Of a stretch of DNA of 64,000 nt, positions 6,001 through 39,348 are shown piece after piece; position 1 is the first letter of the stretch, and each line of letters starts with the position of its first letter. The position numbers and the translations under genes are program-made. The stretch lies in contig JAHQRK010000036.1 in NCBI GenBank assembly GCA_019828595.1, positions 186,001 to 250,000 on the forward strand. Direction: 5' to 3'. The DNA is from Aphanomyces cochlioides (Eukaryota > Oomycota > Saprolegniomycetes > Saprolegniales > Verrucalvaceae). The notes below the pieces were generated by a model. That model worked only from the letters and a program-made list of their open reading frames with translations. It was not told the origin of the DNA and did no database searches.

Positions 6001-6724
6001 TCGTGGCCATCATGAATAATGCACTGCTAGGTTGTCCTCCTGCACAAGCCGACGTTTGACAGTACCGACAAGGAAACTTTAACCGATCTGTTTCTCGATG
6101 GCTTTGGAGTCTACGGCCTCAACTTGACAACTCATGCCCAAGTGTGCCTGCTAGGACGTGATCTACACACTGGACTGGTCGTGGATTTTGGCACAGACTC
6201 AACATGCATCGTGCCCATCTTTGAAGACATGTTGGTACATTCTTCTCAAAGTTAACCTTCATTTAACTCTTACGTAGCTCGATCATGCTCTCGTGACGAT
6301 TCGTCTGGGCGGTGCTGACATTGTCAAGTATTTCACAACAACCAAGGCTGGCGACATGGTCAGCACATCTTCGTCGTCGTTGCTAGATCACCCACGTACG
6401 TGTACTAACACCGAGTCGTTGGTCACGATGAGAGTAGAGGCGCCGATCGATCTCGTCGACGCGATACACGCATGTGTCTCAAAATGCGACCCAGTTCTAC
6501 ACAAAGCCTTGTACAACTCGATCGTAGTCACGGGTGGTCCGTCGGCGCTTCCCGGCCTAGCCAGTCGTCTCGAGCGCGACTTGAATGTCGCAGTCGTCCA
6601 CGTTGAGCCATCCGTTTTCCAAGGCGCGAGTCTCCACGCGACGCACTTGTCACCATACAAATGGGTTCTCAAACCGGACTACGTTGCTCATGGCGCTCGG
6701 ATTGTCCACGCCAAGTGTTTCTGA
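3..6724 (+). CDS. Giant coiled-coil protein fused to a divergent actin-like domain (5' partial)
   Basis: The frame is open to the left window edge, so the N-terminus is missing; the first visible ATG is at 27. Counting from it, residues 1-1500 are mostly charged, heptad-rich coiled coil, like golgins or myosin tails. Residues about 1520-1790 hold six copies of a 43-45 residue repeat. From about residue 1909 (MLLQVGATEIQAGILG) the sequence resembles the first strands of actin. Three introns follow (5829-5878, 5987-6030, 6235-6277), and all four exons join in frame. Later exons give VVDFGTDSTCIVPIFED, like the actin phosphate-2 loop, and YNSIVVTGGPSALPGLASRL, like the actin adenosine-binding GG motif. 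The actin-like part is about 275 residues against about 375 in actin, so subdomains are reduced. No stop separates the two halves, which argues for one polypeptide. Function is unknown; a cytoskeletal or centrosomal scaffold is a guess. Confidence 0.8.
4591..5390 (+). repeat. In-protein tandem repeat of 43-45 residues (GLDRALFA repeat)
   Basis: Six copies of a unit with core W-[ED]-P-T-x-x-GLDRALFA, each followed by a Ser/Pro-rich linker and an acidic stretch. Cores begin near 4591, 4723, 4852, 4983, 5118 and 5252, a spacing of 129-135 bp. Copies four to six are the most alike, with shared linker words such as DGLTSD, which points to recent internal duplication. A seventh, degenerate core may lie near 5380 (WDSLSGHFAAL). 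I do not recognise this repeat. Confidence 0.8.
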
Positions 6725-7649: not shown

Positions 7650-9432
7650 ATGCAGACGCTGGACGACTTGTTTGACTTCATCAAGACCGAAGCACCGTGG
7701 CTCCAACGACATCGTTCTGATGGCTCAACTCAGTGTGAAGATGACAAACAGGAGGCTACCATGGAGCTGCTAGATGCTGTCCTTGTAGAGAATCCACAGT
7801 GGGTGACGTTAACCGATGGAAACGAGGCGACGTTGCTTCACTGGGCAGCCCAACTCGGAAATCCATCGCTTGTCCATATCTTTGTCGATCACGGCGCTCA
7901 AGTTGAAGCCACCGACTCCAATGGTCTTCTTCCGATTCACTGGGCTGCAGCAGCGAACAACATCTCAACGCTGCGAACACTTTTGGATCTCCCAGAATTT
8001 GGTCAACGACTGCTCAATGCTACCGACAAATTCAAACAGCGGACACCACTGCTGCTTGGTGCACAGTACGGCCATGCCATGGTGGTGAGCAGTCATAGGC
8101 GGTGGCAATCCTAGACGTAATGCTAGGTGCTCTTTTTGCTCAAGCGTGGGGCGGACTCGACTGTCGTGGACCGCTCAGGGGTTCGTACAAGCTACTGAAA
8201 TTGATGGCTGGAAATGTCTGTAGGATACATTTCTCCACTGGGCTGCGTACAAAGACGCCACGGATCTTCTCGAAGCTTGTTGTGTCTACAACGACGAGCT
8301 CGGCCTTGATGCATCTCTCTTTCACGCTGTGGATTCCTATGGCCAAACGCCACTGCATCTTGCAGCTCTGCGCGGGTACTCTTTTCTCGTTTGAACTCTT
8401 GACATGGCATGCCAACGATAGACACTTGAAAGCTGTGAAATTTCTCGTTTCAACAGTTCAAGCTGCAACCGAAGATTCTGTGGACAGTAAAGGAGCTACG
8501 CCCTTGGACATAGCTAAAGACAAAGGTCATACCGCCGTCGCCAAGTTTTTAACAGCTAGAGCACGTCAAAGAGCACGACAAGCCGTTCTGCATCGAGTCT
8601 TTGGGGCGAGGATGATGCATTGGCTGAATCTACTGAAGAACGTGCCTTTCTATTTCCAAGCGGTCAATTTGGCCATCGTGCCTTGCTGGTACGGTGGTGT
8701 CCTCTTCCACTACGATACCTACAAAGTACAAGCCCATGCTGCCTTGCTCGCACTCACGTGGTTCTTCTTTGGCTGTGCAGTAAGGCTTGACCCTGGCACG
8801 ATCACAAAGTCGGCTCCAAATGGATCGGAATACACTCACATCATGGAGCGCTTGTTTAGCTACAGCAGTGATGACGATGGCAACATCAACTGGAGTAGCT
8901 CGTTATGCCACAAATGTCGAATTGTGAAGCCACCTCGATCCAAGCATTGCCGTGTATGCAACCGGTGCGTTCAGCTCTTCGATCACCAGTACGTTCAACT
9001 CTCTGCCCGCACTCAAAGTCGTCTTGACATAGCTGTCCCCTGCTTGGGAACTGTGTTGGCCGCAACAATTATTCCTTCTTCGTGGCATTTTCCTCATGCA
9101 TGTCACTAGCTGCATTGACAATGGCCCACATGTGGCTTGACCTGTGGCTAGCTGAAAATACGTGGATGGCAGGCATAGCAGGGATCTACTACTTGAGCGT
9201 TGGACTCATTTCCGGTGGACTTGTCGTCTTGCATCTCTTCCTTGCCACTCAAAACATCTCAACGACTGAGTTCCGCAGGCTGAAGAGGCAAAACAAAATG
9301 CAATTCGATACCAACTACGCATTGTGGCCAAGGAATTGTTTTGAAAGGCTCGGCATGAGCTTTGTGGCGCTATGGCCTGCAAGAACGAAGACATTTCAGA
9401 AGCCATCGGACAAGATTATACATCGCATATAG
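7650..9432 (+). CDS. Ankyrin-repeat DHHC palmitoyltransferase
   Basis: Transfers palmitate to protein cysteines at internal membranes; the architecture matches the Akr1/ZDHHC17 group. Exon 1 (7650-8084) and the following short exons encode ankyrin repeats, for example TLLHWAAQLGNPSLV, PLLLGAQYGHAMV, LKRGADSTVVDRSG and TPLHLAALRG. Hydrophobic segments follow (NLAIVPCWYGGVLF, AALLALTWFFFGCAV), then the cysteine-rich domain with CHKCRIVKPPRSKHCRVCNR. The catalytic DHHC is split by an intron at about 8989-9032: CA joins C to restore DHHCPLLGNCVGRNNYSFF, so the active site is intact. Two more membrane segments lie in the last exon, about 9082-9432. Inferred introns include 8085-8126 (GTGAGC to CTAG), one near 8175-8224 and one near 8378-8426. 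The protein ends with a short basic tail. Confidence 0.88.
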
Positions 9433-9672
9433 CTAAAATCAGAGTGCAACCAGAGCTTCTGCGACGGCAAATACACGGAACAATAAGAAAAAACGTTGAT
9501 ATCAATCCAAAAGAATCTCAAAAACAAAATTGACAACAGCCAACACATCTTCCGCTTCAGAGTTAACTGCTAGAAATATTCATAAGAACAGGAGACGCAA
9601 AAGAAAAGAGAGAGTGCATGGTTTAGGAGTTATAGACTACAGAGGATGGATCTCGTCAAGACGAGATGGATT

Positions 9673-9993
9673 TCAAGGGTACGCCTTGAATCGAGAGCCG
9701 TAGGATGGACCGCCGCCGTACCCGTAGCCAGAATAGCCACCGTCGTTCCCGTAGCCAGAATAGCCACCGCCGTGGCCGTAACCCTGCTTTTCATATCCGC
9801 CTTGGTACTTGTTGCCTCCAGGGTAGCCTCCATACGGGACCGAGTCGTAGCCACCGTCGTACCCTTCGCCATAATCCCCACGAGGACTGTTGTAGCCACC
9901 ATACCCGCCTTGGTGGAACGAGTCACCACCATACTCCGTCGACTGGACACTCACGACGGCACAGCACACCATCGCAAACAAGAGTTTCACCAT
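9673..9993 (-). CDS. Secreted Gly/Tyr-rich protein A, unit 1
   Basis: A 106-residue protein. Residues 1-19 (MVKLLFAMVCCAVVSVQST) form a typical signal peptide. The mature part is almost entirely Gly, Tyr, Ser and Asp in GGY, GYG and SGYG words, with near-exact repeats GGYSGYGNDGGYSGYGYGG around residues 76-95, and an RGD triplet at residues 38-40. There are no cysteines after the signal peptide. The frame is open upstream for 134 more codons, but the ATG at 9993 is preferred because the signal peptide starts there. Proteins of this composition occur in cell walls, adhesives and some antimicrobial peptides, and tyrosine cross-linking is possible. The true role is unknown. Confidence 0.8.
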   Translation of the reverse strand: MVKLLFAMVCCAVVSVQSTEYGGDSFHQGGYGGYNSPRGDYGEGYDGGYDSVPYGGYPGGNKYQGGYEKQGYGHGGGYSGYGNDGGYSGYGYGGGPSYGSRFKAYP

Positions 9994-10204
9994 GTTGGGA
10001 TCTTTCGACGCAAAAGCTACAATGACTTGGTTTACTATCCTCCAACACAGAATCGACGATAAACGGGCCAGGTCGTCGTCCACCTGCTGCTGTTCATTCT
10101 CACCAAGACTCATCGAAAAGAGACAAGACTCGGACTGGTTTACACTTGTCACCACCTCGGTCGTCGTCGCAACCGGCTCGTGTATTCTGCTTGTTGTCGT
10201 CTCG
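9994..10204. promoter_or_regulatory. Bidirectional promoter between divergent GY genes (unit 1; repeated in units 2-10)
   Basis: A 211 bp gap separates the two start codons of each divergent pair. TCATTCTCACC at 10094-10104, about 100 bp before the plus-strand ATG, and TCATTGTAGCTTTT on the minus strand, about 30-40 bp before the minus ATG, resemble the oomycete initiator consensus (TCATT followed by a pyrimidine/A/T-rich tail). No clear TATA box was seen. Function is inferred from position. Unit 5 carries a 3 bp insertion here, and unit 11 keeps only the 156 bp next to its minus gene. Confidence 0.5.
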
Positions 10205-10657
10205 ATGCAACTCGTCGTCTGGGCCATCTCAACGTTGCTTGCACTGGGTGTCGTCGCCCAGTCACCTGCCACAACCGCAACGCCAACTACAACATCCCCA
10301 ACCGATGTGACGTCCACCTCACCACTCACACAAGAATCCGCAGTCGATGGCTTGACGACGGACGTCGACAATCGACAACCCGGTGGTGACGACATTCGAC
10401 CTCACGGTGATAACGACAATCGACACCACGAATATGACAGCGGTGACCCCAGATCGTCTCGTGGTTTGTATGCAAATCGGGTGTTTGTTGACGGTGGTGA
10501 CATAGGAAGCTACGCTGAAGGTCGTCGTCCTGACTACGGTCCCATCGGTGGTCCCATGGGTCCTCATGACGGTGGCCACAACGGCTACTACTACGGCTCT
10601 AACGACGGCTACGGTTCACAACGAAACAATCGTGGCTACGGCTATTACCGCGTGTAG
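10205..10657 (+). CDS. Secreted Thr/Ser-rich and Gly/Tyr-rich protein B, unit 1
   Basis: A 150-residue protein. Residues 1-19 (MQLVVWAISTLLALGVVAQ) are a signal peptide. Residues 20-50 are Thr/Ser/Pro-rich and mucin-like, likely O-glycosylated. Residues 51-115 are polar and charged (Asp, Arg, His). Residues 120-150 are Gly/Tyr/Asn-rich (GYYYGSNDGYGSQRNNRGYG). No cysteines are present. The frame is open 71 codons further upstream, but the ATG at 10205 gives a clean signal peptide. It is divergent from protein A and shares the secreted GY-rich design without obvious alignment outside the tail. Function is unknown; a surface or wall component is a reasonable guess. Confidence 0.78.
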   Translation: MQLVVWAISTLLALGVVAQSPATTATPTTTSPTDVTSTSPLTQESAVDGLTTDVDNRQPGGDDIRPHGDNDNRHHEYDSGDPRSSRGLYANRVFVDGGDIGSYAEGRRPDYGPIGGPMGPHDGGHNGYYYGSNDGYGSQRNNRGYGYYRV

Positions 10658-10943
10658 CGGCATAACTACATTCAACATGATATGTATTCAACATGATCTC
10701 TTCCTTTTGTACACCTCCCGAAAGAGTCGACCCAACATGGTACAGCACTTGGTATCGTGCATATTGCTGTCGGCCATGGACACAATCAAGTCTTTGTGAT
10801 CACCGACTCGATGTCGGCGTCTCGTTGTCGGTGTCTCGTTGTCGGCGTCTCGATATGAATCAGAGATGCAAACGATAGGAGAGAGTGCATGGTTTAGGAG
10901 TTATAGACTACAGAGGATGGATCTCGTCAAGACGAGATGGATT

Positions 10944-11264
10944 TCAAGGGTACGCCTTGAATCGAGAGCCGTAGGATGGACCGCCGCCGTACCCGTAGCC
11001 AGAATAGCCACCGTCGTTCCCGTAGCCAGAATAGCCACCGCCGTGGCCGTAACCCTGCTTTTCATATCCGCCTTGGTACTTGTTGCCTCCAGGGTAGCCT
11101 CCATACGGGACCGAGTCGTAGCCACCGTCGTACCCTTCGCCATAATCCCCACGAGGACTGTTGTAGCCACCATACCCGCCTTGGTGGAACGAGTCACCAC
11201 CATACTCCGTCGACTGGACACTCACGACGGCACAGCACACCATCGCAAACAAGAGTTTCACCAT
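10944..11264 (-). CDS. Secreted GY-rich protein A, unit 2
   Basis: Same 106-residue product as the unit 1 copy; no difference noticed in the coding sequence. Confidence 0.8.
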   Translation of the reverse strand: MVKLLFAMVCCAVVSVQSTEYGGDSFHQGGYGGYNSPRGDYGEGYDGGYDSVPYGGYPGGNKYQGGYEKQGYGHGGGYSGYGNDGGYSGYGYGGGPSYGSRFKAYP

Positions 11265-11475
11265 GTTGGGATCTTTCGACGCAAAAGCTACAATGACTTG
11301 GTTTACTATCCTCCAACACAGAATCGACGATAAACGGGCCAGGTCGTCGTCCACCTGCTGCTGTTCATTCTCACCAAGACTCATCGAAAAGAGACAAGAC
11401 TCGGACTGGTTTACACTTGTCACCACCTCGGTCGTCGTCGCAACCGGCTCGTGTATTCTGCTTGTTGTCGTCTCG

Positions 11476-11928
11476 ATGCAACTCGTCGTCTGGGCCATCT
11501 CAACGTTGCTTGCACTGGGTGTCGTCGCCCAGTCACCTGCCACAACCGCAACGCCAACTACAACATCCCCAACCGATGTGACGTCCACCTCACCACTCAC
11601 ACAAGAATCCGCAGTCGATGGCTTGACGACGGACGTCGACAATCGACAACCCGGTGGTGACGACATTCGACCTCACGGTGATAACGACAATCGACACCAC
11701 GAATATGACAGCGGTGACCCCAGATCGTCTCGTGGTTTGTATGCAAATCGGGTGTTTGTTGACGGTGGTGACATAGGAAGCTACGCTGAAGGTCGTCGTC
11801 CTGACTACGGTCCCATCGGTGGTCCCATGGGTCCTCATGACGGTGGCCACAACGGCTACTACTACGGCTCTAACGACGGCTACGGTTCACAACGAAACAA
11901 TCGTGGCTACGGCTATTACCGCGTGTAG
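11476..11928 (+). CDS. Secreted protein B, unit 2
   Basis: Same 150-residue product as the unit 1 copy; no difference noticed. Confidence 0.78.
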   Translation: MQLVVWAISTLLALGVVAQSPATTATPTTTSPTDVTSTSPLTQESAVDGLTTDVDNRQPGGDDIRPHGDNDNRHHEYDSGDPRSSRGLYANRVFVDGGDIGSYAEGRRPDYGPIGGPMGPHDGGHNGYYYGSNDGYGSQRNNRGYGYYRV

Positions 11929-12214
11929 CGGCATAACTACATTCAACATGATATGTATTCAACATGATCTCTTCCTTTTGTACACCTCCCGAAAGAGTCG
12001 ACCCAACATGGTACAGCACTTGGTATCGTGCATATTGCTGTCGGCCATGGACACAATCAAGTCTTTGTGATCACCGACTCGATGTCGGCGTCTCGTTGTC
12101 GGTGTCTCGTTGTCGGCGTCTCGATATGAATCAGAGATGCAAACGATAGGAGAGAGTGCATGGTTTAGGAGTTATAGACTACAGAGGATGGATCTCGTCA
12201 AGACGAGATGGATT

Positions 12215-12535
12215 TCAAGGGTACGCCTTGAATCGAGAGCCGTAGGATGGACCGCCGCCGTACCCGTAGCCAGAATAGCCACCGTCGTTCCCGTAGCCAG
12301 AATAGCCACCGCCGTGGCCGTAACCCTGCTTTTCATATCCGCCTTGGTACTTGTTGCCTCCAGGGTAGCCTCCATACGGGACCGAGTCGTAGCCACCGTC
12401 GTACCCTTCGCCATAATCCCCACGAGGACTGTTGTAGCCACCATACCCGCCTTGGTGGAACGAGTCACCACCATACTCCGTCGACTGGACACTCACGACG
12501 GCACAGCACACCATCGCAAACAAGAGTTTCACCAT
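12215..12535 (-). CDS. Secreted GY-rich protein A, unit 3
   Basis: Coding sequence unchanged, although its divergent partner in this unit is broken. Confidence 0.8.
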   Translation of the reverse strand: MVKLLFAMVCCAVVSVQSTEYGGDSFHQGGYGGYNSPRGDYGEGYDGGYDSVPYGGYPGGNKYQGGYEKQGYGHGGGYSGYGNDGGYSGYGYGGGPSYGSRFKAYP

Positions 12536-12746
12536 GTTGGGATCTTTCGACGCAAAAGCTACAATGACTTGGTTTACTATCCTCCAACACAGAATCGACG
12601 ATAAACGGGCCAGGTCGTCGTCCACCTGCTGCTGTTCATTCTCACCAAGACTCATCGAAAAGAGACAAGACTCGGACTGGTTTACACTTGTCACCACCTC
12701 GGTCGTCGTCGCAACCGGCTCGTGTATTCTGCTTGTTGTCGTCTCG

Positions 12747-13197
12747 ATGCAACTCGTCGTCTGGGCCATCAACGTTGCTTGCACTGGGTGTCGTCGCCCA
12801 GTCACCTGCCACAACCGCAACGCCAACTACAACATCCCCAACCGATGTGACGTCCACCTCACCACTCACACAAGAATCCGCAGTCGATGGCTTGACGACG
12901 GACGTCGACAATCGACAACCCGGTGGTGACGACATTCGACCTCACGGTGATAACGACAATCGACACCACGAATATGACAGCGGTGACCCCAGATCGTCTC
13001 GTGGTTTGTATGCAAATCGGGTGTTTGTTGACGGTGGTGACATAGGAAGCTACGCTGAAGGTCGTCGTCCTGACTACGGTCCCATCGGTGGTCCCATGGG
13101 TCCTCATGACGGTGGCCACAACGGCTACTACTACGGCTCTAACGACGGCTACGGTTCACAACGAAACAATCGTGGCTACGGCTATTACCGCGTGTAG
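12747..13197 (+). pseudogene. Protein B, unit 3, frameshifted in the signal peptide
   Basis: A 2 bp deletion (CT) at about 12769 changes the frame after codon 8 of the signal peptide. Translation from the usual ATG would run into an unrelated frame that stops at 12929. The rest of the normal frame, from the ALGVVAQS segment to the stop at 13197, is intact. This is either a genuinely dead copy or a sequence error. The spacer of the same unit also has a private 1 bp insertion at about 13264, which favours a real variant unit. Confidence 0.75.
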
Positions 13198-13484
13198 CGG
13201 CATAACTACATTCAACATGATATGTATTCAACATGATCTCTTCCTTTTGTACACCTCCCGAAAAGAGTCGACCCAACATGGTACAGCACTTGGTATCGTG
13301 CATATTGCTGTCGGCCATGGACACAATCAAGTCTTTGTGATCACCGACTCGATGTCGGCGTCTCGTTGTCGGTGTCTCGTTGTCGGCGTCTCGATATGAA
13401 TCAGAGATGCAAACGATAGGAGAGAGTGCATGGTTTAGGAGTTATAGACTACAGAGGATGGATCTCGTCAAGACGAGATGGATT

Positions 13485-13805
13485 TCAAGGGTACGCCTTG
13501 AATCGAGAGCCGTAGGATGGACCGCCGCCGTACCCGTAGCCAGAATAGCCACCGTCGTTCCCGTAGCCAGAATAGCCACCGCCGTGGCCGTAACCCTGCT
13601 TTTCATATCCGCCTTGGTACTTGTTGCCTCCAGGGTAGCCTCCATACGGGACCGAGTCGTAGCCACCGTCGTACCCTTCGCCATAATCCCCACGAGGACT
13701 GTTGTAGCCACCATACCCGCCTTGGTGGAACGAGTCACCACCATACTCCGTCGACTGGACACTCACGACGGCACAGCACACCATCGCAAACAAGAGTTTC
13801 ACCAT
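13485..13805 (-). CDS. Secreted GY-rich protein A, unit 4
   Basis: Identical product; the spacer to its left carries the 1 bp insertion of unit 3. Confidence 0.8.
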   Translation of the reverse strand: MVKLLFAMVCCAVVSVQSTEYGGDSFHQGGYGGYNSPRGDYGEGYDGGYDSVPYGGYPGGNKYQGGYEKQGYGHGGGYSGYGNDGGYSGYGYGGGPSYGSRFKAYP

Positions 13806-14016
13806 GTTGGGATCTTTCGACGCAAAAGCTACAATGACTTGGTTTACTATCCTCCAACACAGAATCGACGATAAACGGGCCAGGTCGTCGTCCACCTGCT
13901 GCTGTTCATTCTCACCAAGACTCATCGAAAAGAGACAAGACTCGGACTGGTTTACACTTGTCACCACCTCGGTCGTCGTCGCAACCGGCTCGTGTATTCT
14001 GCTTGTTGTCGTCTCG

Positions 14017-14469
14017 ATGCAACTCGTCGTCTGGGCCATCTCAACGTTGCTTGCACTGGGTGTCGTCGCCCAGTCACCTGCCACAACCGCAACGCCAACT
14101 ACAACATCCCCAACCGATGTGACGTCCACCTCACCACTCACACAAGAATCCGCAGTCGATGGCTTGACGACGGACGTCGACAATCGACAACCCGGTGGTG
14201 ACGACATTCGACCTCACGGTGATAACGACAATCGACACCACGAATATGACAGCGGTGACCCCAGATCGTCTCGTGGTTTGTATGCAAATCGGGTGTTTGT
14301 TGACGGTGGTGACATAGGAAGCTACGCTGAAGGTCGTCGTCCTGACTACGGTCCCATCGGTGGTCCCATGGGTCCTCATGACGGTGGCCACAACGGCTAC
14401 TACTACGGCTCTAACGACGGCTACGGTTCACAACGAAACAATCGTGGCTACGGCTATTACCGCGTGTAG
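14017..14469 (+). CDS. Secreted protein B, unit 4
   Basis: Intact 150-residue copy with the signal peptide restored relative to unit 3. Confidence 0.78.
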   Translation: MQLVVWAISTLLALGVVAQSPATTATPTTTSPTDVTSTSPLTQESAVDGLTTDVDNRQPGGDDIRPHGDNDNRHHEYDSGDPRSSRGLYANRVFVDGGDIGSYAEGRRPDYGPIGGPMGPHDGGHNGYYYGSNDGYGSQRNNRGYGYYRV

Positions 14470-14755
14470 CGGCATAACTACATTCAACATGATATGTATT
14501 CAACATGATCTCTTCCTTTTGTACACCTCCCGAAAGAGTCGACCCAACATGGTACAGCACTTGGTATCGTGCATATTGCTGTCGGCCATGGACACAATCA
14601 AGTCTTTGTGATCACCGACTCGATGTCGGCGTCTCGTTGTCGGTGTCTCGTTGTCGGCGTCTCGATATGAATCAGAGATGCAAACGATAGGAGAGAGTGC
14701 ATGGTTTAGGAGTTATAGACTACAGAGGATGGATCTCGTCAAGACGAGATGGATT

Positions 14756-15076
14756 TCAAGGGTACGCCTTGAATCGAGAGCCGTAGGATGGACCGCCGCC
14801 GTACCCGTAGCCAGAATAGCCACCGTCGTTCCCGTAGCCAGAATAGCCACCGCCGTGGCCGTAACCCTGCTTTTCATATCCGCCTTGGTACTTGTTGCCT
14901 CCAGGGTAGCCTCCATACGGGACCGAGTCGTAGCCACCGTCGTACCCTTCGCCATAATCCCCACGAGGACTGTTGTAGCCACCATACCCGCCTTGGTGGA
15001 ACGAGTCACCACCATACTCCGTCGACTGGACACTCACGACGGCACAGCACACCATCGCAAACAAGAGTTTCACCAT
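14756..15076 (-). CDS. Secreted GY-rich protein A, unit 5
   Basis: Identical product; its upstream region has a 3 bp insertion at about 15129, 53 bp before the ATG. Confidence 0.8.
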   Translation of the reverse strand: MVKLLFAMVCCAVVSVQSTEYGGDSFHQGGYGGYNSPRGDYGEGYDGGYDSVPYGGYPGGNKYQGGYEKQGYGHGGGYSGYGNDGGYSGYGYGGGPSYGSRFKAYP

Positions 15077-15290
15077 GTTGGGATCTTTCGACGCAAAAGC
15101 TACAATGACTTGGTTTACTATCCTCCAACGGCACAGAATCGACGATAAACGGGCCAGGTCGTCGTCCACCTGCTGCTGTTCATTCTCACCAAGACTCATC
15201 GAAAAGAGACAAGACTCGGACTGGTTTACACTTGTCACCACCTCGGTCGTCGTCGCAACCGGCTCGTGTATTCTGCTTGTTGTCGTCTCG

Positions 15291-15743
15291 ATGCAACTCG
15301 TCGTCTGGGCCATCTCAACGTTGCTTGCACTGGGTGTCGTCGCCCAGTCACCTGCCACAACCGCAACGCCAACTACAACATCCCCAACCGATGTGACGTC
15401 CACCTCACCACTCACACAAGAATCCGCAGTCGATGGCTTGACGACGGACGTCGACAATCGACAACCCGGTGGTGACGACATTCGACCTCACGGTGATAAC
15501 GACAATCGACACCACGAATATGACAGCGGTGACCCCAGATCGTCTCGTGGTTTGTATGCAAATCGGGTGTTTGTTGACGGTGGTGACATAGGAAGCTACG
15601 CTGAAGGTCGTCGTCCTGACTACGGTCCCATCGGTGGTCCCATGGGTCCTCATGACGGTGGCCACAACGGCTACTACTACGGCTCTAACGACGGCTACGG
15701 TTCACAACGAAACAATCGTGGCTACGGCTATTACCGCGTGTAG
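15291..15743 (+). CDS. Secreted protein B, unit 5
   Basis: Identical product; it lies 214 bp from the minus ATG rather than 211 because of the insertion in the shared upstream region. Confidence 0.78.
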   Translation: MQLVVWAISTLLALGVVAQSPATTATPTTTSPTDVTSTSPLTQESAVDGLTTDVDNRQPGGDDIRPHGDNDNRHHEYDSGDPRSSRGLYANRVFVDGGDIGSYAEGRRPDYGPIGGPMGPHDGGHNGYYYGSNDGYGSQRNNRGYGYYRV

Positions 15744-16029
15744 CGGCATAACTACATTCAACATGATATGTATTCAACATGATCTCTTCCTTTTGTACAC
15801 CTCCCGAAAGAGTCGACCCAACATGGTACAGCACTTGGTATCGTGCATATTGCTGTCGGCCATGGACACAATCAAGTCTTTGTGATCACCGACTCGATGT
15901 CGGCGTCTCGTTGTCGGTGTCTCGTTGTCGGCGTCTCGATATGAATCAGAGATGCAAACGATAGGAGAGAGTGCATGGTTTAGGAGTTATAGACTACAGA
16001 GGATGGATCTCGTCAAGACGAGATGGATT

Positions 16030-16350
16030 TCAAGGGTACGCCTTGAATCGAGAGCCGTAGGATGGACCGCCGCCGTACCCGTAGCCAGAATAGCCACCGT
16101 CGTTCCCGTAGCCAGAATAGCCACCGCCGTGGCCGTAACCCTGCTTTTCATATCCGCCTTGGTACTTGTTGCCTCCAGGGTAGCCTCCATACGGGACCGA
16201 GTCGTAGCCACCGTCGTACCCTTCGCCATAATCCCCACGAGGACTGTTGTAGCCACCATACCCGCCTTGGTGGAACGAGTCACCACCATACTCCGTCGAC
16301 TGGACACTCACGACGGCACAGCACACCATCGCAAACAAGAGTTTCACCAT
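16030..16350 (-). CDS. Secreted GY-rich protein A, unit 6
   Basis: Identical 106-residue product; no private variant noticed. Confidence 0.8.
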   Translation of the reverse strand: MVKLLFAMVCCAVVSVQSTEYGGDSFHQGGYGGYNSPRGDYGEGYDGGYDSVPYGGYPGGNKYQGGYEKQGYGHGGGYSGYGNDGGYSGYGYGGGPSYGSRFKAYP

Positions 16351-16561
16351 GTTGGGATCTTTCGACGCAAAAGCTACAATGACTTGGTTTACTATCCTCC
16401 AACACAGAATCGACGATAAACGGGCCAGGTCGTCGTCCACCTGCTGCTGTTCATTCTCACCAAGACTCATCGAAAAGAGACAAGACTCGGACTGGTTTAC
16501 ACTTGTCACCACCTCGGTCGTCGTCGCAACCGGCTCGTGTATTCTGCTTGTTGTCGTCTCG

Positions 16562-17014
16562 ATGCAACTCGTCGTCTGGGCCATCTCAACGTTGCTTGCA
16601 CTGGGTGTCGTCGCCCAGTCACCTGCCACAACCGCAACGCCAACTACAACATCCCCAACCGATGTGACGTCCACCTCACCACTCACACAAGAATCCGCAG
16701 TCGATGGCTTGACGACGGACGTCGACAATCGACAACCCGGTGGTGACGACATTCGACCTCACGGTGATAACGACAATCGACACCACGAATATGACAGCGG
16801 TGACCCCAGATCGTCTCGTGGTTTGTATGCAAATCGGGTGTTTGTTGACGGTGGTGACATAGGAAGCTACGCTGAAGGTCGTCGTCCTGACTACGGTCCC
16901 ATCGGTGGTCCCATGGGTCCTCATGACGGTGGCCACAACGGCTACTACTACGGCTCTAACGACGGCTACGGTTCACAACGAAACAATCGTGGCTACGGCT
17001 ATTACCGCGTGTAG
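16562..17014 (+). CDS. Secreted protein B, unit 6
   Basis: Identical 150-residue product; no private variant noticed. Confidence 0.78.
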   Translation: MQLVVWAISTLLALGVVAQSPATTATPTTTSPTDVTSTSPLTQESAVDGLTTDVDNRQPGGDDIRPHGDNDNRHHEYDSGDPRSSRGLYANRVFVDGGDIGSYAEGRRPDYGPIGGPMGPHDGGHNGYYYGSNDGYGSQRNNRGYGYYRV

Positions 17015-17305
17015 CGGCATAACTACATTCAACATGATATGTATTCAACATGATCTCTTCCTTTTGTACACCTCCCGAAAGAGTCGACCCAACATGGTAC
17101 AGCACTTGGTATCGTGCATATTGCTGTCGGCCATGGACACAATCAAGTCTTTGTGATCACCGACTCGATGTCGGCGTCTCGTTGTCGGTGTCTCGTTGTC
17201 GGCGTCTCGATATGAATCAGAGATGCAAACGATAGGAGAGAGTGCATGGTTTAGGAGTTATATAGACTACAGAGGAGGATGGATCTCGTCAAGACGAGAT
17301 GGATT

Positions 17306-17626
17306 TCAAGGGTACGCCTTGAATCGAGAGCCGTAGGATGGACCGCCGCCGTACCCGTAGCCAGAATAGCCACCGTCGTTCCCGTAGCCAGAATAGCCAC
17401 CGCCGTGGCCGTAACCCTGCTTTTCATATCCGCCTTGGTACTTGTTGCCTCCAGGGTAGCCTCCATACGGGACCGAGTCGTAGCCACCGTCGTACCCTTC
17501 GCCATAATCCCCACGAGGACTGTTGTAGCCACCATACCCGCCTTGGTGGAACGAGTCACCACCATACTCCGTCGACTGGACACTCACGACGGCACAGCAC
17601 ACCATCGCAAACAAGAGTTTCACCAT
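17306..17626 (-). CDS. Secreted GY-rich protein A, unit 7
   Basis: Identical product. The region just 3' of its stop, about 17262-17276, has two small insertions (TA and GAG), making this the longest period in the array (1276 bp). Confidence 0.8.
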   Translation of the reverse strand: MVKLLFAMVCCAVVSVQSTEYGGDSFHQGGYGGYNSPRGDYGEGYDGGYDSVPYGGYPGGNKYQGGYEKQGYGHGGGYSGYGNDGGYSGYGYGGGPSYGSRFKAYP

Positions 17627-17837
17627 GTTGGGATCTTTCGACGCAAAAGCTACAATGACTTGGTTTACTATCCTCCAACACAGAATCGACGATAAACGGG
17701 CCAGGTCGTCGTCCACCTGCTGCTGTTCATTCTCACCAAGACTCATCGAAAAGAGACAAGACTCGGACTGGTTTACACTTGTCACCACCTCGGTCGTCGT
17801 CGCAACCGGCTCGTGTATTCTGCTTGTTGTCGTCTCG

Positions 17838-18290
17838 ATGCAACTCGTCGTCTGGGCCATCTCAACGTTGCTTGCACTGGGTGTCGTCGCCCAGTCACCT
17901 GCCACAACCGCAACGCCAACTACAACATCCCCAACCGATGTGACGTCCACCTCACCACTCACACAAGAATCCGCAGTCGATGGCTTGACGACGGACGTCG
18001 ACAATCGACAACCCGGTGGTGACGACATTCGACCTCACGGTGATAACGACAATCGACACCACGAATATGACAGCGGTGACCCCAGATCGTCTCGTGGTTT
18101 GTATGCAAATCGGGTGTTTGTTGACGGTGGTGACATAGGAAGCTACGCTGAAGGTCGTCGTCCTGACTACGGTCCCATCGGTGGTCCCATGGGTCCTCAT
18201 GACGGTGGCCACAACGGCTACTACTACGGCTCTAACGACGGCTACGGTTCACAACGAAACAATCGTGGCTACGGCTATTACCGCGTGTAG
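17838..18290 (+). CDS. Secreted protein B, unit 7
   Basis: Identical 150-residue product. Confidence 0.78.
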   Translation: MQLVVWAISTLLALGVVAQSPATTATPTTTSPTDVTSTSPLTQESAVDGLTTDVDNRQPGGDDIRPHGDNDNRHHEYDSGDPRSSRGLYANRVFVDGGDIGSYAEGRRPDYGPIGGPMGPHDGGHNGYYYGSNDGYGSQRNNRGYGYYRV

Positions 18291-18576
18291 CGGCATAACT
18301 ACATTCAACATGATATGTATTCAACATGATCTCTTCCTTTTGTACACCTCCCGAAAGAGTCGACCCAACATGGTACAGCACTTGGTATCGTGCATATTGC
18401 TGTCGGCCATGGACACAATCAAGTCTTTGTGATCACCGACTCGATGTCGGCGTCTCGTTGTCGGTGTCTCGTTGTCGGCGTCTCGATATGAATCAGAGAT
18501 GCAAACGATAGGAGAGAGTGCATGGTTTAGGAGTTATAGACTACAGAGGATGGATCTCGTCAAGACGAGATGGATT

Positions 18577-18897
18577 TCAAGGGTACGCCTTGAATCGAGA
18601 GCCGTAGGATGGACCGCCGCCGTACCCGTAGCCAGAATAGCCACCGTCGTTCCCGTAGCCAGAATAGCCACCGCCGTGGCCGTAACCCTGCTTTTCATAT
18701 CCGCCTTGGTACTTGTTGCCTCCAGGGTAGCCTCCATACGGGACCGAGTCGTAGCCACCGTCGTACCCTTCGCCATAATCCCCACGAGGACTGTTGTAGC
18801 CACCATACCCGCCTTGGTGGAACGAGTCACCACCATACTCCGTCGACTGGACACTCACGACGGCACAGCACACCATCGCAAACAAGAGTTTCACCAT
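18577..18897 (-). CDS. Secreted GY-rich protein A, unit 8
   Basis: Identical 106-residue product; exact 1271 bp spacing from unit 7. Confidence 0.8.
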   Translation of the reverse strand: MVKLLFAMVCCAVVSVQSTEYGGDSFHQGGYGGYNSPRGDYGEGYDGGYDSVPYGGYPGGNKYQGGYEKQGYGHGGGYSGYGNDGGYSGYGYGGGPSYGSRFKAYP

Positions 18898-19108
18898 GTT
18901 GGGATCTTTCGACGCAAAAGCTACAATGACTTGGTTTACTATCCTCCAACACAGAATCGACGATAAACGGGCCAGGTCGTCGTCCACCTGCTGCTGTTCA
19001 TTCTCACCAAGACTCATCGAAAAGAGACAAGACTCGGACTGGTTTACACTTGTCACCACCTCGGTCGTCGTCGCAACCGGCTCGTGTATTCTGCTTGTTG
19101 TCGTCTCG

Positions 19109-19561
19109 ATGCAACTCGTCGTCTGGGCCATCTCAACGTTGCTTGCACTGGGTGTCGTCGCCCAGTCACCTGCCACAACCGCAACGCCAACTACAACATC
19201 CCCAACCGATGTGACGTCCACCTCACCACTCACACAAGAATCCGCAGTCGATGGCTTGACGACGGACGTCGACAATCGACAACCCGGTGGTGACGACATT
19301 CGACCTCACGGTGATAACGACAATCGACACCACGAATATGACAGCGGTGACCCCAGATCGTCTCGTGGTTTGTATGCAAATCGGGTGTTTGTTGACGGTG
19401 GTGACATAGGAAGCTACGCTGAAGGTCGTCGTCCTGACTACGGTCCCATCGGTGGTCCCATGGGTCCTCATGACGGTGGCCACAACGGCTACTACTACGG
19501 CTCTAACGACGGCTACGGTTCACAACGAAACAATCGTGGCTACGGCTATTACCGCGTGTAG
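19109..19561 (+). CDS. Secreted protein B, unit 8
   Basis: Identical 150-residue product. Confidence 0.78.
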   Translation: MQLVVWAISTLLALGVVAQSPATTATPTTTSPTDVTSTSPLTQESAVDGLTTDVDNRQPGGDDIRPHGDNDNRHHEYDSGDPRSSRGLYANRVFVDGGDIGSYAEGRRPDYGPIGGPMGPHDGGHNGYYYGSNDGYGSQRNNRGYGYYRV

Positions 19562-19847
19562 CGGCATAACTACATTCAACATGATATGTATTCAACATGA
19601 TCTCTTCCTTTTGTACACCTCCCGAAAGAGTCGACCCAACATGGTACAGCACTTGGTATCGTGCATATTGCTGTCGGCCATGGACACAATCAAGTCTTTG
19701 TGATCACCGACTCGATGTCGGCGTCTCGTTGTCGGTGTCTCGTTGTCGGCGTCTCGATATGAATCAGAGATGCAAACGATAGGAGAGAGTGCATGGTTTA
19801 GGAGTTATAGACTACAGAGGATGGATCTCGTCAAGACGAGATGGATT

Positions 19848-20168
19848 TCAAGGGTACGCCTTGAATCGAGAGCCGTAGGATGGACCGCCGCCGTACCCGT
19901 AGCCAGAATAGCCACCGTCGTTCCCGTAGCCAGAATAGCCACCGCCGTGGCCGTAACCCTGCTTTTCATATCCGCCTTGGTACTTGTTGCCTCCAGGGTA
20001 GCCTCCATACGGGACCGAGTCGTAGCCACCGTCGTACCCTTCGCCATAATCCCCACGAGGACTGTTGTAGCCACCATACCCGCCTTGGTGGAACGAGTCA
20101 CCACCATACTCCGTCGACTGGACACTCACGACGGCACAGCACACCATCGCAAACAAGAGTTTCACCAT
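19848..20168 (-). CDS. Secreted GY-rich protein A, unit 9
   Basis: Identical 106-residue product. Confidence 0.8.
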   Translation of the reverse strand: MVKLLFAMVCCAVVSVQSTEYGGDSFHQGGYGGYNSPRGDYGEGYDGGYDSVPYGGYPGGNKYQGGYEKQGYGHGGGYSGYGNDGGYSGYGYGGGPSYGSRFKAYP

Positions 20169-20379
20169 GTTGGGATCTTTCGACGCAAAAGCTACAATGA
20201 CTTGGTTTACTATCCTCCAACACAGAATCGACGATAAACGGGCCAGGTCGTCGTCCACCTGCTGCTGTTCATTCTCACCAAGACTCATCGAAAAGAGACA
20301 AGACTCGGACTGGTTTACACTTGTCACCACCTCGGTCGTCGTCGCAACCGGCTCGTGTATTCTGCTTGTTGTCGTCTCG

Positions 20380-20832
20380 ATGCAACTCGTCGTCTGGGCC
20401 ATCTCAACGTTGCTTGCACTGGGTGTCGTCGCCCAGTCACCTGCCACAACCGCAACGCCAACTACAACATCCCCAACCGATGTGACGTCCACCTCACCAC
20501 TCACACAAGAATCCGCAGTCGATGGCTTGACGACGGACGTCGACAATCGACAACCCGGTGGTGACGACATTCGACCTCACGGTGATAACGACAATCGACA
20601 CCACGAATATGACAGCGGTGACCCCAGATCGTCTCGTGGTTTGTATGCAAATCGGGTGTTTGTTGACGGTGGTGACATAGGAAGCTACGCTGAAGGTCGT
20701 CGTCCTGACTACGGTCCCATCGGTGGTCCCATGGGTCCTCATGACGGTGGCCACAACGGCTACTACTACGGCTCTAACGACGGCTACGGTTCACAACGAA
20801 ACAATCGTGGCTACGGCTATTACCGCGTGTAG
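20380..20832 (+). CDS. Secreted protein B, unit 9
   Basis: Identical 150-residue product. Confidence 0.78.
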   Translation: MQLVVWAISTLLALGVVAQSPATTATPTTTSPTDVTSTSPLTQESAVDGLTTDVDNRQPGGDDIRPHGDNDNRHHEYDSGDPRSSRGLYANRVFVDGGDIGSYAEGRRPDYGPIGGPMGPHDGGHNGYYYGSNDGYGSQRNNRGYGYYRV

Positions 20833-21118
20833 CGGCATAACTACATTCAACATGATATGTATTCAACATGATCTCTTCCTTTTGTACACCTCCCGAAAGA
20901 GTCGACCCAACATGGTACAGCACTTGGTATCGTGCATATTGCTGTCGGCCATGGACACAATCAAGTCTTTGTGATCACCGACTCGATGTCGGCGTCTCGT
21001 TGTCGGTGTCTCGTTGTCGGCGTCTCGATATGAATCAGAGATGCAAACGATAGGAGAGAGTGCATGGTTTAGGAGTTATAGACTACAGAGGATGGATCTC
21101 GTCAAGACGAGATGGATT

Positions 21119-21439
21119 TCAAGGGTACGCCTTGAATCGAGAGCCGTAGGATGGACCGCCGCCGTACCCGTAGCCAGAATAGCCACCGTCGTTCCCGTAG
21201 CCAGAATAGCCACCGCCGTGGCCGTAACCCTGCTTTTCATATCCGCCTTGGTACTTGTTGCCTCCAGGGTAGCCTCCATACGGGACCGAGTCGTAGCCAC
21301 CGTCGTACCCTTCGCCATAATCCCCACGAGGACTGTTGTAGCCACCATACCCGCCTTGGTGGAACGAGTCACCACCATACTCCGTCGACTGGACACTCAC
21401 GACGGCACAGCACACCATCGCAAACAAGAGTTTCACCAT
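21119..21439 (-). CDS. Secreted GY-rich protein A, unit 10
   Basis: Identical 106-residue product. Confidence 0.8.
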   Translation of the reverse strand: MVKLLFAMVCCAVVSVQSTEYGGDSFHQGGYGGYNSPRGDYGEGYDGGYDSVPYGGYPGGNKYQGGYEKQGYGHGGGYSGYGNDGGYSGYGYGGGPSYGSRFKAYP

Positions 21440-21650
21440 GTTGGGATCTTTCGACGCAAAAGCTACAATGACTTGGTTTACTATCCTCCAACACAGAATC
21501 GACGATAAACGGGCCAGGTCGTCGTCCACCTGCTGCTGTTCATTCTCACCAAGACTCATCGAAAAGAGACAAGACTCGGACTGGTTTACACTTGTCACCA
21601 CCTCGGTCGTCGTCGCAACCGGCTCGTGTATTCTGCTTGTTGTCGTCTCG

Positions 21651-22103
21651 ATGCAACTCGTCGTCTGGGCCATCTCAACGTTGCTTGCACTGGGTGTCGT
21701 CGCCCAGTCACCTGCCACAACCGCAACGCCAACTACAACATCCCCAACCGATGTGACGTCCACCTCACCACTCACACAAGAATCCGCAGTCGATGGCTTG
21801 ACGACGGACGTCGACAATCGACAACCCGGTGGTGACGACATTCGACCTCACGGTGATAACGACAATCGACACCACGAATATGACAGCGGTGACCCCAGAT
21901 CGTCTCGTGGTTTGTATGCAAATCGGGTGTTTGTTGACGGTGGTGACATAGGAAGCTACGCTGAAGGTCGTCGTCCTGACTACGGTCCCATCGGTGGTCC
22001 CATGGGTCCTCATGACGGTGGCCACAACGGCTACTACTACGGCTCTAACGACGGCTACGGTTCACAACGAAACAATCGTGGCTACGGCTATTACCGCGTG
22101 TAG
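21651..22103 (+). CDS. Secreted protein B, unit 10 (last B copy)
   Basis: Identical 150-residue product; the following partial unit has no B gene. Confidence 0.78.
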   Translation: MQLVVWAISTLLALGVVAQSPATTATPTTTSPTDVTSTSPLTQESAVDGLTTDVDNRQPGGDDIRPHGDNDNRHHEYDSGDPRSSRGLYANRVFVDGGDIGSYAEGRRPDYGPIGGPMGPHDGGHNGYYYGSNDGYGSQRNNRGYGYYRV

Positions 22104-22389
22104 CGGCATAACTACATTCAACATGATATGTATTCAACATGATCTCTTCCTTTTGTACACCTCCCGAAAGAGTCGACCCAACATGGTACAGCACTTGGTA
22201 TCGTGCATATTGCTGTCGGCCATGGACACAATCAAGTCTTTGTGATCACCGACTCGATGTCGGCGTCTCGTTGTCGGTGTCTCGTTGTCGGCGTCTCGAT
22301 ATGAATCAGAGATGCAAACGATAGGAGAGAGTGCATGGTTTAGGAGTTATAGACTACAGAGGATGGATCTCGTCAAGACGAGATGGATT

Positions 22390-22710
22390 TCAAGGGTACG
22401 CCTTGAATCGAGAGCCGTAGGATGGACCGCCGCCGTACCCGTAGCCAGAATAGCCACCGTCGTTCCCGTAGCCAGAATAGCCACCGCCGTGGCCGTAACC
22501 CTGCTTTTCATATCCGCCTTGGTACTTGTTGCCTCCAGGGTAGCCTCCATACGGGACCGAGTCGTAGCCACCGTCGTACCCTTCGCCATAATCCCCACGA
22601 GGACTGTTGTAGCCACCATACCCGCCTTGGTGGAACGAGTCACCACCATACTCCGTCGACTGGACACTCACGACGGCACAGCACACCATCGCAAACAAGA
22701 GTTTCACCAT
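22390..22710 (-). CDS. Secreted GY-rich protein A, unit 11 (terminal, promoter truncated)
   Basis: Coding sequence is complete, but array sequence stops at about 22866, 156 bp upstream of the ATG. Beyond that lies unrelated DNA leading to VPS52. This copy therefore has only part of the shared promoter and no divergent partner; its expression may differ from the others. Confidence 0.78.
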   Translation of the reverse strand: MVKLLFAMVCCAVVSVQSTEYGGDSFHQGGYGGYNSPRGDYGEGYDGGYDSVPYGGYPGGNKYQGGYEKQGYGHGGGYSGYGNDGGYSGYGYGGGPSYGSRFKAYP

Positions 22711-23067
22711 GTTGGGATCTTTCGACGCAAAAGCTACAATGACTTGGTTTACTATCCTCCAACACAGAATCGACGATAAACGGGCCAGGTCGTCGTCCAC
22801 CTGCTGCTGTTCATTCTCACCAAGACTCATCGAAAAGAGACAAGACTCGGACTGGTTTACACTTGTAGATAGTTTGGTTGAGCCGGGGGTGGCTGATTAT
22901 TGTTTTCATCACGTTGGATTGTTGACTGCACGTGTGAGGTGGTGTCGATTGTTTCAAGTGTTCTTTCCCGGGTTGTTCACCTTTAAGTAATTTTGCTTTA
23001 TTATACAATTTTTGTGTGATATTTTGGATAGTTTATTTTATTTTCTCCCAGATCTTTGGAAGGGAGC

Positions 23068-25218
23068 ATGATGAAGATGGTAGATGTGCTCGAGGACATT
23101 GACTTTGACGAGCTCGACGATCACTTGGAGCAATTCCAACAAGATGACTTTATCAAGGAAGCTCTAGCCAAGGGTGTTGACCTACGTCAGTATGCGCAGC
23201 AGATTGATCGTGAGCTCCGAGACGTTGAAATGGAATCCATCACACAATACGTTGCGAAATCGGCCGACATTGTGGACCTGTACAATCAAGTGCAAGCGTG
23301 TGACGACATCCTAGCTCGAATGCAGGAAATGCTCTTGGGGTTCCAAGCTGATTTGGGTGGTATTTCGGACGAAATCCGCAATCTCCAGAATGAATCGATC
23401 GAGATGAATGTCAAGTTACGAAATCGACGTGAAGCAGAGGAGAAATTACGCATCTTCCTCGACCAGGTATCGTACAATGACGAAACATTTTCTGAGGAAA
23501 AATATAGGTGTATATTCCCCCAACCTTGATCGAAGGAATCGACGATGGCGATGTGAACGAAGCGTATGTATCGTACCTTATGATCCTCAACAGCAAGCTC
23601 GCATATGCCAAGCTTAATGAAGCTGCTCCAACCTCCCTTGGCGTCGTACCTGCTCAAGCTAAAGCTGTGCAGCAGGTTGATTCAGATCTCGAAAAGCTCA
23701 AACTTCGAGCTTGCTCACAGGTTCACCGATTTCTTGCAAATTGGCATCCTCACATCAAATTACCGGTAGATTCGCGAATGGCTCCTTGGCCGTATTAACG
23801 ACCTTAAGAAGCCAAAGACGAATGTGCAAATTGTACAACAGTCAACGTTGCTCAAGATGAAGTACTTGGTGGAGTTCTTAAATGACCAAGCGCCGTCTCT
23901 GGCCAACGAATTTCGTGATACTTATGCCGACACGATGAGTCGTATCCTCTTAGGTGTCTTCAAAGCATACCACACGGGCTTGATGAAATTTGTCGAAGAA
24001 AGCGCGACACGGACCGATGTAATTGCCGTCGAGGAAGCAAGCCTCAAGTCTCTATTCAGTTCCCGAGTGAATGCCAAGCAAACTAACGCCTTTGCCATGG
24101 GCGACCGCGATAAAATTCTCGAAGAAGCGCTCCAGCCACCAATTCTCGTCCACATGGCACAAGCTGAAAACCTCAAATGCTCGTATGAAGTTCTTTTCCG
24201 GTCAACGCAGATCCATCTCATCAATGCGGCAACGTCAGAGTACCTCTTCCTCCTCGACTTCTTCAAGGCTACGGAGAGCAGCAATCCCATTCGAATTCGC
24301 GAACTTTTCATGCGCGTCTTTGCAAAAACACTCAGCTTGAGCCTCGAACAACTCGAAAACTACCTCTGTACGTGTAACGATGCCATCGGATTGCTGCTCA
24401 TGATCCGCCTCACCCAAAGTCATCGCCAAGTAATGGAACAGCGGCGTATTCCTGTCTTGGACACGTATTTGAACCGCATTTTGCTTCTCTTGTGGCCTCG
24501 CTTCCATACCGTGGTTGATCTGAATGTCCAAAGTGTCAAGCAAGCAAAGCCAAAGAAACTTGGCAGTGTGGAACTACATCCCCACTACGTTACAAGGCGA
24601 TATGCTGAGTTTGTCGCTTCGCTATTAGGTTTGATTCCTGAAGGTGGCGATGGCGAAGCTGTCTACGTGTCCATGGCGGCGCTGCGTGAAGCCCTTGTCG
24701 AATTATTGGAGAAGCTGAGCGAGAGTCACAAGAGCTCCAAGGAGAAATGTGTTTTCCTCATCAACAATTACGATTTGGTCGTGAGCGTCGTGCAAGAACG
24801 CAAGATCGCATCGGATGAAACGAGCAAGTTTGAAGAATTGCTCGTCGCACAGCGGGAGCGCTTTGTCGAGGAGGAGCTCATGGCTTGGTATGGCACGTTG
24901 ATCGTCTTTGTCCAGCAGACGGAAAGCAAGAAGCCCGAGACGCTTGAGAGTTCCAAAGTCGAAAAAATTGTCAAGGAGTTCAACGCACATTGGAAAGCTG
25001 GCATTGAAAAGATGAACAGCAACATCATGAAGTACTTCTCCAACTTTCGCAATGGCATGGAAATCCTCAAGCAAGTCCTGACGCAACTCCTGCTCTACTA
25101 CACGCGATTTATCGAGCTTGTCAAGAAGAGCTGGACGCGACCACCCAGTTTCAGCAACGATATCGTCACGACGCAAGAAATCCTCTACGAGATCAAAAAG
25201 TATAGCCGATCCTTTTAA
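23068..25218 (+). CDS. VPS52: Vps52, subunit of the GARP/EARP tethering complex
   Basis: Acts at the trans-Golgi network, tethering endosome-derived vesicles together with Vps51, Vps53 and Vps54. The first ATG in frame, 23068, was taken as start. Exons 23068-23466, 23508-23720 and 23770-25218 join in frame to 686 residues, the usual size of the family. Introns are 41 and 49 bp with GT-AG ends. The N-terminal half is coiled coil (DEIRNLQNESIEMNVKLRNR, typical of Vps52/Sac2), and RINDLKKPKTNVQIVQQ across the second junction matches the conserved Vps52 core. The gene starts about 200 bp after the GY array and is convergent with spermidine synthase, 56 bp apart. Confidence 0.9.
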
Positions 25219-39223: not shown

Positions 39224-39348
39224 TCGCTGGTTGTGGCGAGTGTTGGCATGCAGGTCACCCTGGCGGGACCAATGCGATGCCTCTGGACTTTCCGTGTCCT
39301 TGCGATCGTGCGATCGGCGGAACTTGGTCTTGGGTTCGGGTGACGGAC

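Follow-up and report, generated by a model that had tools for sequence, protein, structure and literature searches.

Why does the genome of Aphanomyces cochlioides, a water mould that rots sugar beet, hold an array of paired small genes in which the coding and the spacer DNA of the repeated units are almost identical? The array is located in a stretch of 64,000 nucleotides (GenBank assembly GCA_019828595.1, contig JAHQRK010000036.1, positions 186,001 to 250,000 of the forward strand), which is referred to here as the window. Each complete unit of the array carries two genes, A and B, predicted to encode two unlike small secreted proteins. The reading that is best supported by composition, layout and analogy is that the locus is a dosage-amplified source of a two-component extracellular wall or coat, most likely of the sexual spore, and this reading is given about an even chance of being correct.

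The array and its two predicted secreted proteins

When unit 1 is used as the blastn query, a tandem head-to-tail array of about 13 kb is found at 9609-22866, which are exactly the limits given in the original prediction, with ten complete units (9609-22325) and a partial unit of 541 bp (22326-22866). The number of units is also as predicted, but a length of 1271 bp applies only to the seven of the ten complete units that are identical letter for letter. Units 3, 5 and 7 (1270, 1274 and 1276 bp) differ from these by insertions and deletions (indels) only, and there are no substitutions across the ten complete units, in agreement with the near-complete identity of coding and spacer DNA noted before. 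In each complete unit, A (106 residues) on the minus strand and B (150 residues) on the plus strand are read outward from a common spacer. The predicted spacer length of 211 bp is observed in nine of the ten complete units, the lengths in unit 5 and in the partial unit being 214 and 156 bp. It had also been claimed that every unit codes for both proteins. This holds for A, whose frame is intact in 11 of 11 copies; the frame of B is intact in nine of ten, being disrupted in unit 3 by a short deletion near codon 9.

For the mature forms, the cut site was assumed to be after residue 18 in both proteins, which leaves 88 residues of A and 132 of B. The N-termini are hydrophobic and are modelled as helices, and inspection by eye shows that small residues precede the likely cut site; from these N-termini, we infer that A and B are secreted. 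Mature A contains 36% Gly and 20% Tyr (57% when taken together) and has an isoelectric point (pI) of 5.0, so that its description as Gly/Tyr-rich is fully borne out. For B (pI 4.95), this description is correct only for the last 60 residues (27% Gly, 15% Tyr), which belong to a later portion of Gly, Arg, Asp and Tyr; the first 38 residues of mature B contain 32% Thr and 13% Ser, with His outside the eight commonest residues. The sequences are of very low complexity, with repeated GGY/GYG, and no cysteine is present in either mature protein. Among 210 stop-to-stop frames of at least 80 codons outside the array, the maximum Gly+Tyr content is 16%, compared with 57% for mature A, and the composition of A is therefore not due to chance. 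Long frames also run antisense to A, one of them at 10839-11333 on the plus strand, and these are taken as probable by-products of this composition.

In the AlphaFold2 models (alignments of 3 and 4 rows), A and B each have a single N-terminal helix and no further element. A confidence score (pLDDT) of at least 70 is reached by 2 of the 106 residues of A and by none of the 150 residues of B, with means of 47.7 and 48.1, respectively, and both proteins are modelled as disordered. No Pfam family is found above its cut-off for either protein, and at E values up to 0.1 there is neither an NCBIfam family nor a solved structure resembling A or B. B weakly resembles Pfam New_glue (E=0.26; 11.5 bits, where the cut-off is 31), but this similarity is at chance level and was not used. 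A common origin of A and B is unsupported, the best shared piece being 19 residues long with E=0.028 in a single comparison of low-complexity sequence. The annotated A. cochlioides proteins AC1031_014818 and AC1031_014819 match B and A, respectively. The annotated B model lacks 14 residues, as if a 42 nt intron had been removed, and the plain frame is preferred because a homologue from an ENA source largely keeps these residues. The annotated A model has an extra upstream part, and here too the plain frame is preferred, since this part coincides with a core-promoter match.

The shared spacer, relatives and the age of the layout

The oomycete core-promoter motifs INR (YCAYTYY) and FPR (MWTTTNC) are separated by a gap of 2 nt, and the combined motif has been reported in Saprolegnia parasitica as well (PMC3599244; here and below, comparisons with published work refer to excerpts of the cited papers). 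The spacer sequence TCATTGT-AG-CTTTTGC, directed toward A, fits INR plus FPR. Equally good matches outside the array number 13 in 101,484 positions of both strands, corresponding to an expectation of about 0.016 per 125 nt. For the INR match directed toward B the expectation is 0.14 per 125 nt, and this match is hence weak when considered alone. If both sites are used, the predicted starts of A and B would be about 73 bp apart and would precede the respective ATGs by about 30 nt and 109 nt. Both matches are retained in a pair of gene copies at 152.7 kb of C30 (the contig on which the window lies), a pair that is too close a relative for this retention to be strong evidence. The strongest hint that the stretch upstream of A is functional, either as promoter or as coding sequence, comes from the ENA homologue of A, where all 12 residues that can be read directly upstream of the start are identical, even though the protein has diverged (75% over 79% of A). 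A palindromic spacer was considered and rejected, as only one imperfect 12-nt inverted pair is found. Within 22711-23066 of the window, the remnant of the spacer in the partial unit carries the INR match of B at 22811, which points at the start of the neighbouring Vps52 gene, and this remnant might add a promoter to that gene.

When the unit DNA is used to search the 76.2-Mb assembly (94 contigs), at least nine matching pieces are found outside the array, at three places. The first, C30:152.7-153.7 kb, is at a distance of 42 kb from the array and holds a reversed pair at 90% identity, in which A is intact and B is shortened. At C13:996.7-1023.8 kb there are seven pieces, including the end of B joined to the end of A via a diverged version of the unit-to-unit junction of the array, a fragment of A without the original start and two short pieces. 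At C9:930 kb there is a relic of A with two stops. The C30 pair and the C13 junction indicate that both the pairing and the tandem repetition are older than the present near-uniform array. The insertion in unit 5 is shared with the C30 pair, which is most simply explained by the retention of an older state in unit 5, the alternatives being a patch of gene conversion or a polishing artefact. Two diverged copies that are independent of each other (L036:4660 and L037:9168) both match the unit from its position 25 onward, as if this were the start of an ancestral segment.

A search of A and B against 5.8 billion proteins, which reaches relatives sharing 5-residue words, gives three matches for each. 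Those of A are from A. cochlioides, from Aphanomyces euteiches (81%, P0005) and from the ENA source (75%); two of those of B are from A. cochlioides and one is from the ENA source (66%). A profile search with B identified no further relatives among 7990 candidates scored. In viral contigs, 44 pattern stretches were found for B and 53 for A, and in prokaryote genomes 43 were found with B as the query, none of which was confirmed as a relative. The ENA homologues of B (P0003) and A (P0006) each have a longest contig of 1341 bp, only 70 bp more than the array unit, as would be expected if a perfect tandem array were assembled from short reads.

Possible readings: a coat locus, effectors or a neutral burst

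In the proposed mechanism, A and B are likely transcribed together, outward from the compact shared promoter, and the ten pairs would supply the two predicted secreted proteins at raised dosage. Unequal crossing-over and gene conversion would maintain the array and keep the ratio of A to B near 1:1. Outside the cell, disordered A may associate through its Gly/Tyr-rich sequence with the Gly/Tyr-rich tail of B, the tyrosines may join the two proteins, and the Thr-rich start of B may be O-glycosylated. The likeliest site of the product is the wall of the oogonium or oospore, by analogy with Phytophthora M96 and Pythium PoStr, followed by a cyst coat or adhesive. An antimicrobial film, which the original prediction listed as another kind of two-component extracellular material, is disfavoured when cationic or Cys-rich antimicrobials are considered, as both mature proteins are acidic (pI of about 5) and are without cysteine.

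The organisation of the array, with homogenised head-to-head pairs that have short spacers and are repeated in tandem, is of the type known from the silkmoth chorion. In Bombyx mori, there are 21 head-to-head HcA/HcB pairs with a common promoter of 330 nt (PMC4639761), compared with ten pairs and a spacer of 211 bp here. In both systems, two types of small proteins (secreted structural proteins in the chorion, predicted to be secreted here) are encoded head-to-head in clustered, strongly similar pairs (86-96% in the chorion, for the gene regions of five pairs compared), and in the chorion cluster also some B-type copies are unpaired or broken and a few pairs are reversed. The chorion loci differ in being animal genes with an intron and with TATA, GATA and C/EBP promoter elements (PMC4639761), in having 3' flanks of only 48-72% identity between pairs, where those of the array are identical apart from indels, and in encoding Cys-rich Hc proteins. 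The chorion A and B proteins are also proposed to form one superfamily, whereas the oomycete A and B have no convincing mutual relation. Homology with chorion proteins is not observed, the matches of the protein search being confined to Aphanomyces and the ENA source.

Within the oomycetes, the nearest match in composition and tandem organisation is M96, and this is a likeness without family membership. M96 is a putative wall protein that is induced more than 100-fold in mating, and its arrays possibly evolve concertedly, with mostly species-specific grouping (PMC5999078). M96 shares with A and B the stretches rich in Gly, Ser and Tyr and the tandem clusters, and has signal peptides, as predicted for A and B. 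About 50 mole-percent of Gly+Ser+Tyr, as described for the remainder of M96, is also present here (about 65% in mature A and about 47% in the last 60 residues of B). M96 differs in its median mature size (271 residues, compared with 88 and 132) and in its His-rich N-terminal third, where the start of B is Thr-rich, and no head-to-head partner is described in the excerpt of PMC5999078. There is no Phytophthora protein among the three matches of A and the three of B, a result of the database search rather than of a direct alignment with M96. The small tyrosine-rich PoStr of Pythium oligandrum is cited as essential for oogonial and oospore walls, and no paired array is described for it in the excerpts of the citing literature. 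The loricrin-like PiLLP of Phytophthora infestans is likewise a Gly-rich oomycete protein, required for normal oospore formation; this is a likeness by description, and the excerpt mentions no tandem array or pairing (PMC5298957).

The original prediction also took the identity of the units as a sign of selection for high output. This conclusion does not follow, because identity in coding and spacer DNA alike indicates recent homogenisation or recent amplification. Codon use was compared with a high-expression set of four of eight listed frames (one beta-tubulin, one alpha-tubulin, actin and EF1A, leaving out three near-duplicates and one uncertain frame) and with a background set of four window genes, in which spermidine synthase is itself high (0.658) and the other three are at 0.227-0.311. 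The codon adaptation of A (0.375) and B (0.394) is only slightly above the background expectation (medians of 0.265 and 0.269, upper 95% limits of 0.339 and 0.329). High output per copy is unsupported by this codon use, and high output as an established fact is ruled out by it; the dosage may be raised through copy number.

Several observations weigh against the proposed coat locus. First, the codon adaptation of both genes is far under the high-expression expectation (0.72 for A and 0.70 for B). Second, B shows no detectable constraint when compared with the C30 pair, in which, however, B is shortened and may be decaying. The substitutions in this comparison are 4/294 in A, 25/429 in B, 7/186 in the spacer and 3/40 in the stretch after A. 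In A, 1.4% of the positions are substituted, compared with 4.4% of the adjoining non-coding DNA (p=0.052), and A differs from B (p=0.003), so that A is perhaps constrained; the 5.8% of B is similar to that of the non-coding DNA (p=0.58). The ratios of non-synonymous to synonymous substitution rates (dN/dS) are 0.30 for A (two synonymous, two non-synonymous; p=0.23 by site counts) and 2.2 for B (three synonymous, 19 non-synonymous; p=0.31 by site counts), neither being significant. Third, B was not found in A. euteiches within the reach of the word-based search; the proposed search for homologues and their pairing thus gave A in A. euteiches, and both A and B in the ENA source. Fourth, no tyrosine-cross-linking enzyme is present among the window genes scanned, no genome-wide search having been made.

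The main rival, which is judged to be unlikely although it is the strongest of the alternatives, is that A and B are effector-type small secreted proteins (SSPs) of Aphanomyces, acting on the host in root infection and amplified for host adaptation. A and B agree with the size and domain parts of the SSP definition (less than 300 residues, no functional domain; PMC8780586, PMC5907361), and they share with the known families the genus, the small size and, probably, secretion (PMC8780586). About 5% of the A. euteiches SSP (AeSSP) genes are clustered, with three to nine genes per cluster (PMC5907361), INR+FPR genes of P. infestans are linked with infection functions (PMC3599244), and B changes fast. 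Nevertheless, neither the RxLR nor the LxLFLAK motif of RxLR and CRN effectors occurs in A or B, and one simple pattern detects no basic-cluster nuclear localisation signal as in nuclear AeSSPs such as AeSSP1256. The absence of cysteine from the mature proteins and the very low complexity with repeated GGY/GYG also argue against this alternative. In the excerpts, SSP clusters are not said to pair two unlike proteins in a fixed way; the tandem class of A. euteiches is MDR-rich, not Gly/Tyr-rich, and pairing is not mentioned for it (PMC8780586). Separately, a study of infected samples reports that less than 1% of its reads mapped to the pathogen (PMC11653986).

It is less probable still that the array arose neutrally when unequal crossing-over recently went through a burst, so that the genes are functional and their copy number has no selected role. 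Such a burst would agree with the absence of substitutions from spacers and genes alike, with the weak codon bias, with the lack of detectable constraint on B and with the finding of a single array in the genome and broken relics elsewhere, these counts being lower bounds. The intact frames of nearly all copies speak against it, yet neutrality, too, would leave the frames of young and identical copies intact. The old copy of the tandem junction on C13 is a further argument, as it indicates that the tandem organisation is recurrent or long-standing.

An artefact of assembly, in the copy number or in the array as a whole, is very improbable: the units differ by indels only, like consensus errors, but unrelated genes flank the array on both sides within its contig, a diverged unit-to-unit junction exists on another contig, and the unit 5 insertion shared with the independent C30 pair is likely real, a polishing artefact being less probable. 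The layout is thus unlikely to be an invention of the assembly, and the copy number could still be off. Early assemblies of P. infestans had over-collapsed M96 into a single gene (PMC5999078), and the MDR-rich SSPs of A. euteiches are in tandem in a long-read assembly, with one copy in most Illumina-sequenced strains (PMC8780586).

Features, surroundings and meaning of the locus

Table 1. Positions of the array, its units, genes and putative promoter elements in the window (position 1 is the first nucleotide of the window).
Feature	Position	Strand	Remark
Whole array	9609..22866		ten complete units and one 541-bp partial unit
Unit 1	9609..10879		1271 bp, reference
Unit 2	10880..12150		identical to unit 1
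Unit 3	12151..13420		1270 bp; broken B frame
Unit 4	13421..14691		identical to unit 1
Unit 5	14692..15965		1274 bp; 3-bp insertion in spacer, found too in C30:152.7 kb pair
Unit 6	15966..17236		identical to unit 1
Unit 7	17237..18512		1276 bp; two small insertions downstream of A
Unit 8	18513..19783		identical to unit 1
Unit 9	19784..21054		identical to unit 1
Unit 10	21055..22325		identical to unit 1
Partial unit 11	22326..22866		A and 156 bp of spacer; without B
Gene A copy 1	9673..9993	-	106 residues, signal-peptide-like N-terminal stretch
Gene A copy 2	10944..11264	-	
Gene A copy 3	12215..12535	-	
Gene A copy 4	13485..13805	-	
Gene A copy 5	14756..15076	-	
Gene A copy 6	16030..16350	-	
Gene A copy 7	17306..17626	-	
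Gene A copy 8	18577..18897	-	
Gene A copy 9	19848..20168	-	
Gene A copy 10	21119..21439	-	
Gene A copy 11	22390..22710	-	in partial unit; core-promoter match retained
Gene B copy 1	10205..10657	+	150 residues
Gene B copy 2	11476..11928	+	
Gene B copy 3	12747..13197	+	frame disrupted near codon 9, either a pseudogene or an error of sequencing
Gene B copy 4	14017..14469	+	
Gene B copy 5	15291..15743	+	
Gene B copy 6	16562..17014	+	
Gene B copy 7	17838..18290	+	
Gene B copy 8	19109..19561	+	
Gene B copy 9	20380..20832	+	
Gene B copy 10	21651..22103	+	
Head-to-head spacer, unit 1	9994..10204		211 bp; putative promoter for both directions, recurring in every complete unit
INR+FPR core-promoter match for A	10010..10025	-	13/14 defined positions, with the 2-nt gap exact; present in all 11 units
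INR match for B	10094..10100	+	7/7; 111 nt upstream of B ATG; also in the other 10 units

To the left of the array, the frame at 8102-9109 encodes a DHHC acyltransferase domain; to the right is the Vps52 gene, whose domain is within 23824-25218 and whose start, by eye, is near 23.07 kb. No Rfam match at the gathering score is found in 9000-23500. Further to the left there are two pieces of an actin-family gene (6031-6721), upstream of the DHHC frame, and, at 5003-5291, a tandem repeat of 132 bp, a length divisible by three, within a frame of 1935 codons that appears to be coiled coil when inspected by eye. On the right, 13 kb from the array, minus-strand retroelement frames are present at 35605-45972; the frame at 43684-45972 (minus strand) encodes domains of a reverse transcriptase, an RNase H and an aspartyl protease, and the other frames resemble integrases or chromodomains by eye only. 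At 50725-53208, a single frame encodes a homologue of retinoblastoma, in which the RB_A, RB_B and Rb_C domains are present.

Oomycetes are already known to have putative wall-protein genes in tandem (M96), and silkmoths to have coat genes in head-to-head pairs. A term search of the open-licence literature identified no oomycete locus that combines a tandem array with head-to-head coat pairs. It is conceivable, if on the doubtful side, that the oomycete has independently evolved the solution of the silkmoth chorion, in which a homogenised tandem array of divergent pairs sets the dosage and timing of two dissimilar Gly/Tyr-rich proteins that assemble and cross-link into a spore coat. If so, we know of no earlier case, outside insects, of a coat locus with paired genes and a bidirectional promoter. 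If A and B are co-expressed coat partners, tyrosine-based wall hardening could be studied in a small system of two proteins, and the locus would serve as a natural experiment on whether the dosage of two partners is kept equal by concerted evolution. In Aphanomyces it is the oospore that persists for long in soil, and proteins of the oospore wall, as A and B may be, therefore bear on survival in the field.

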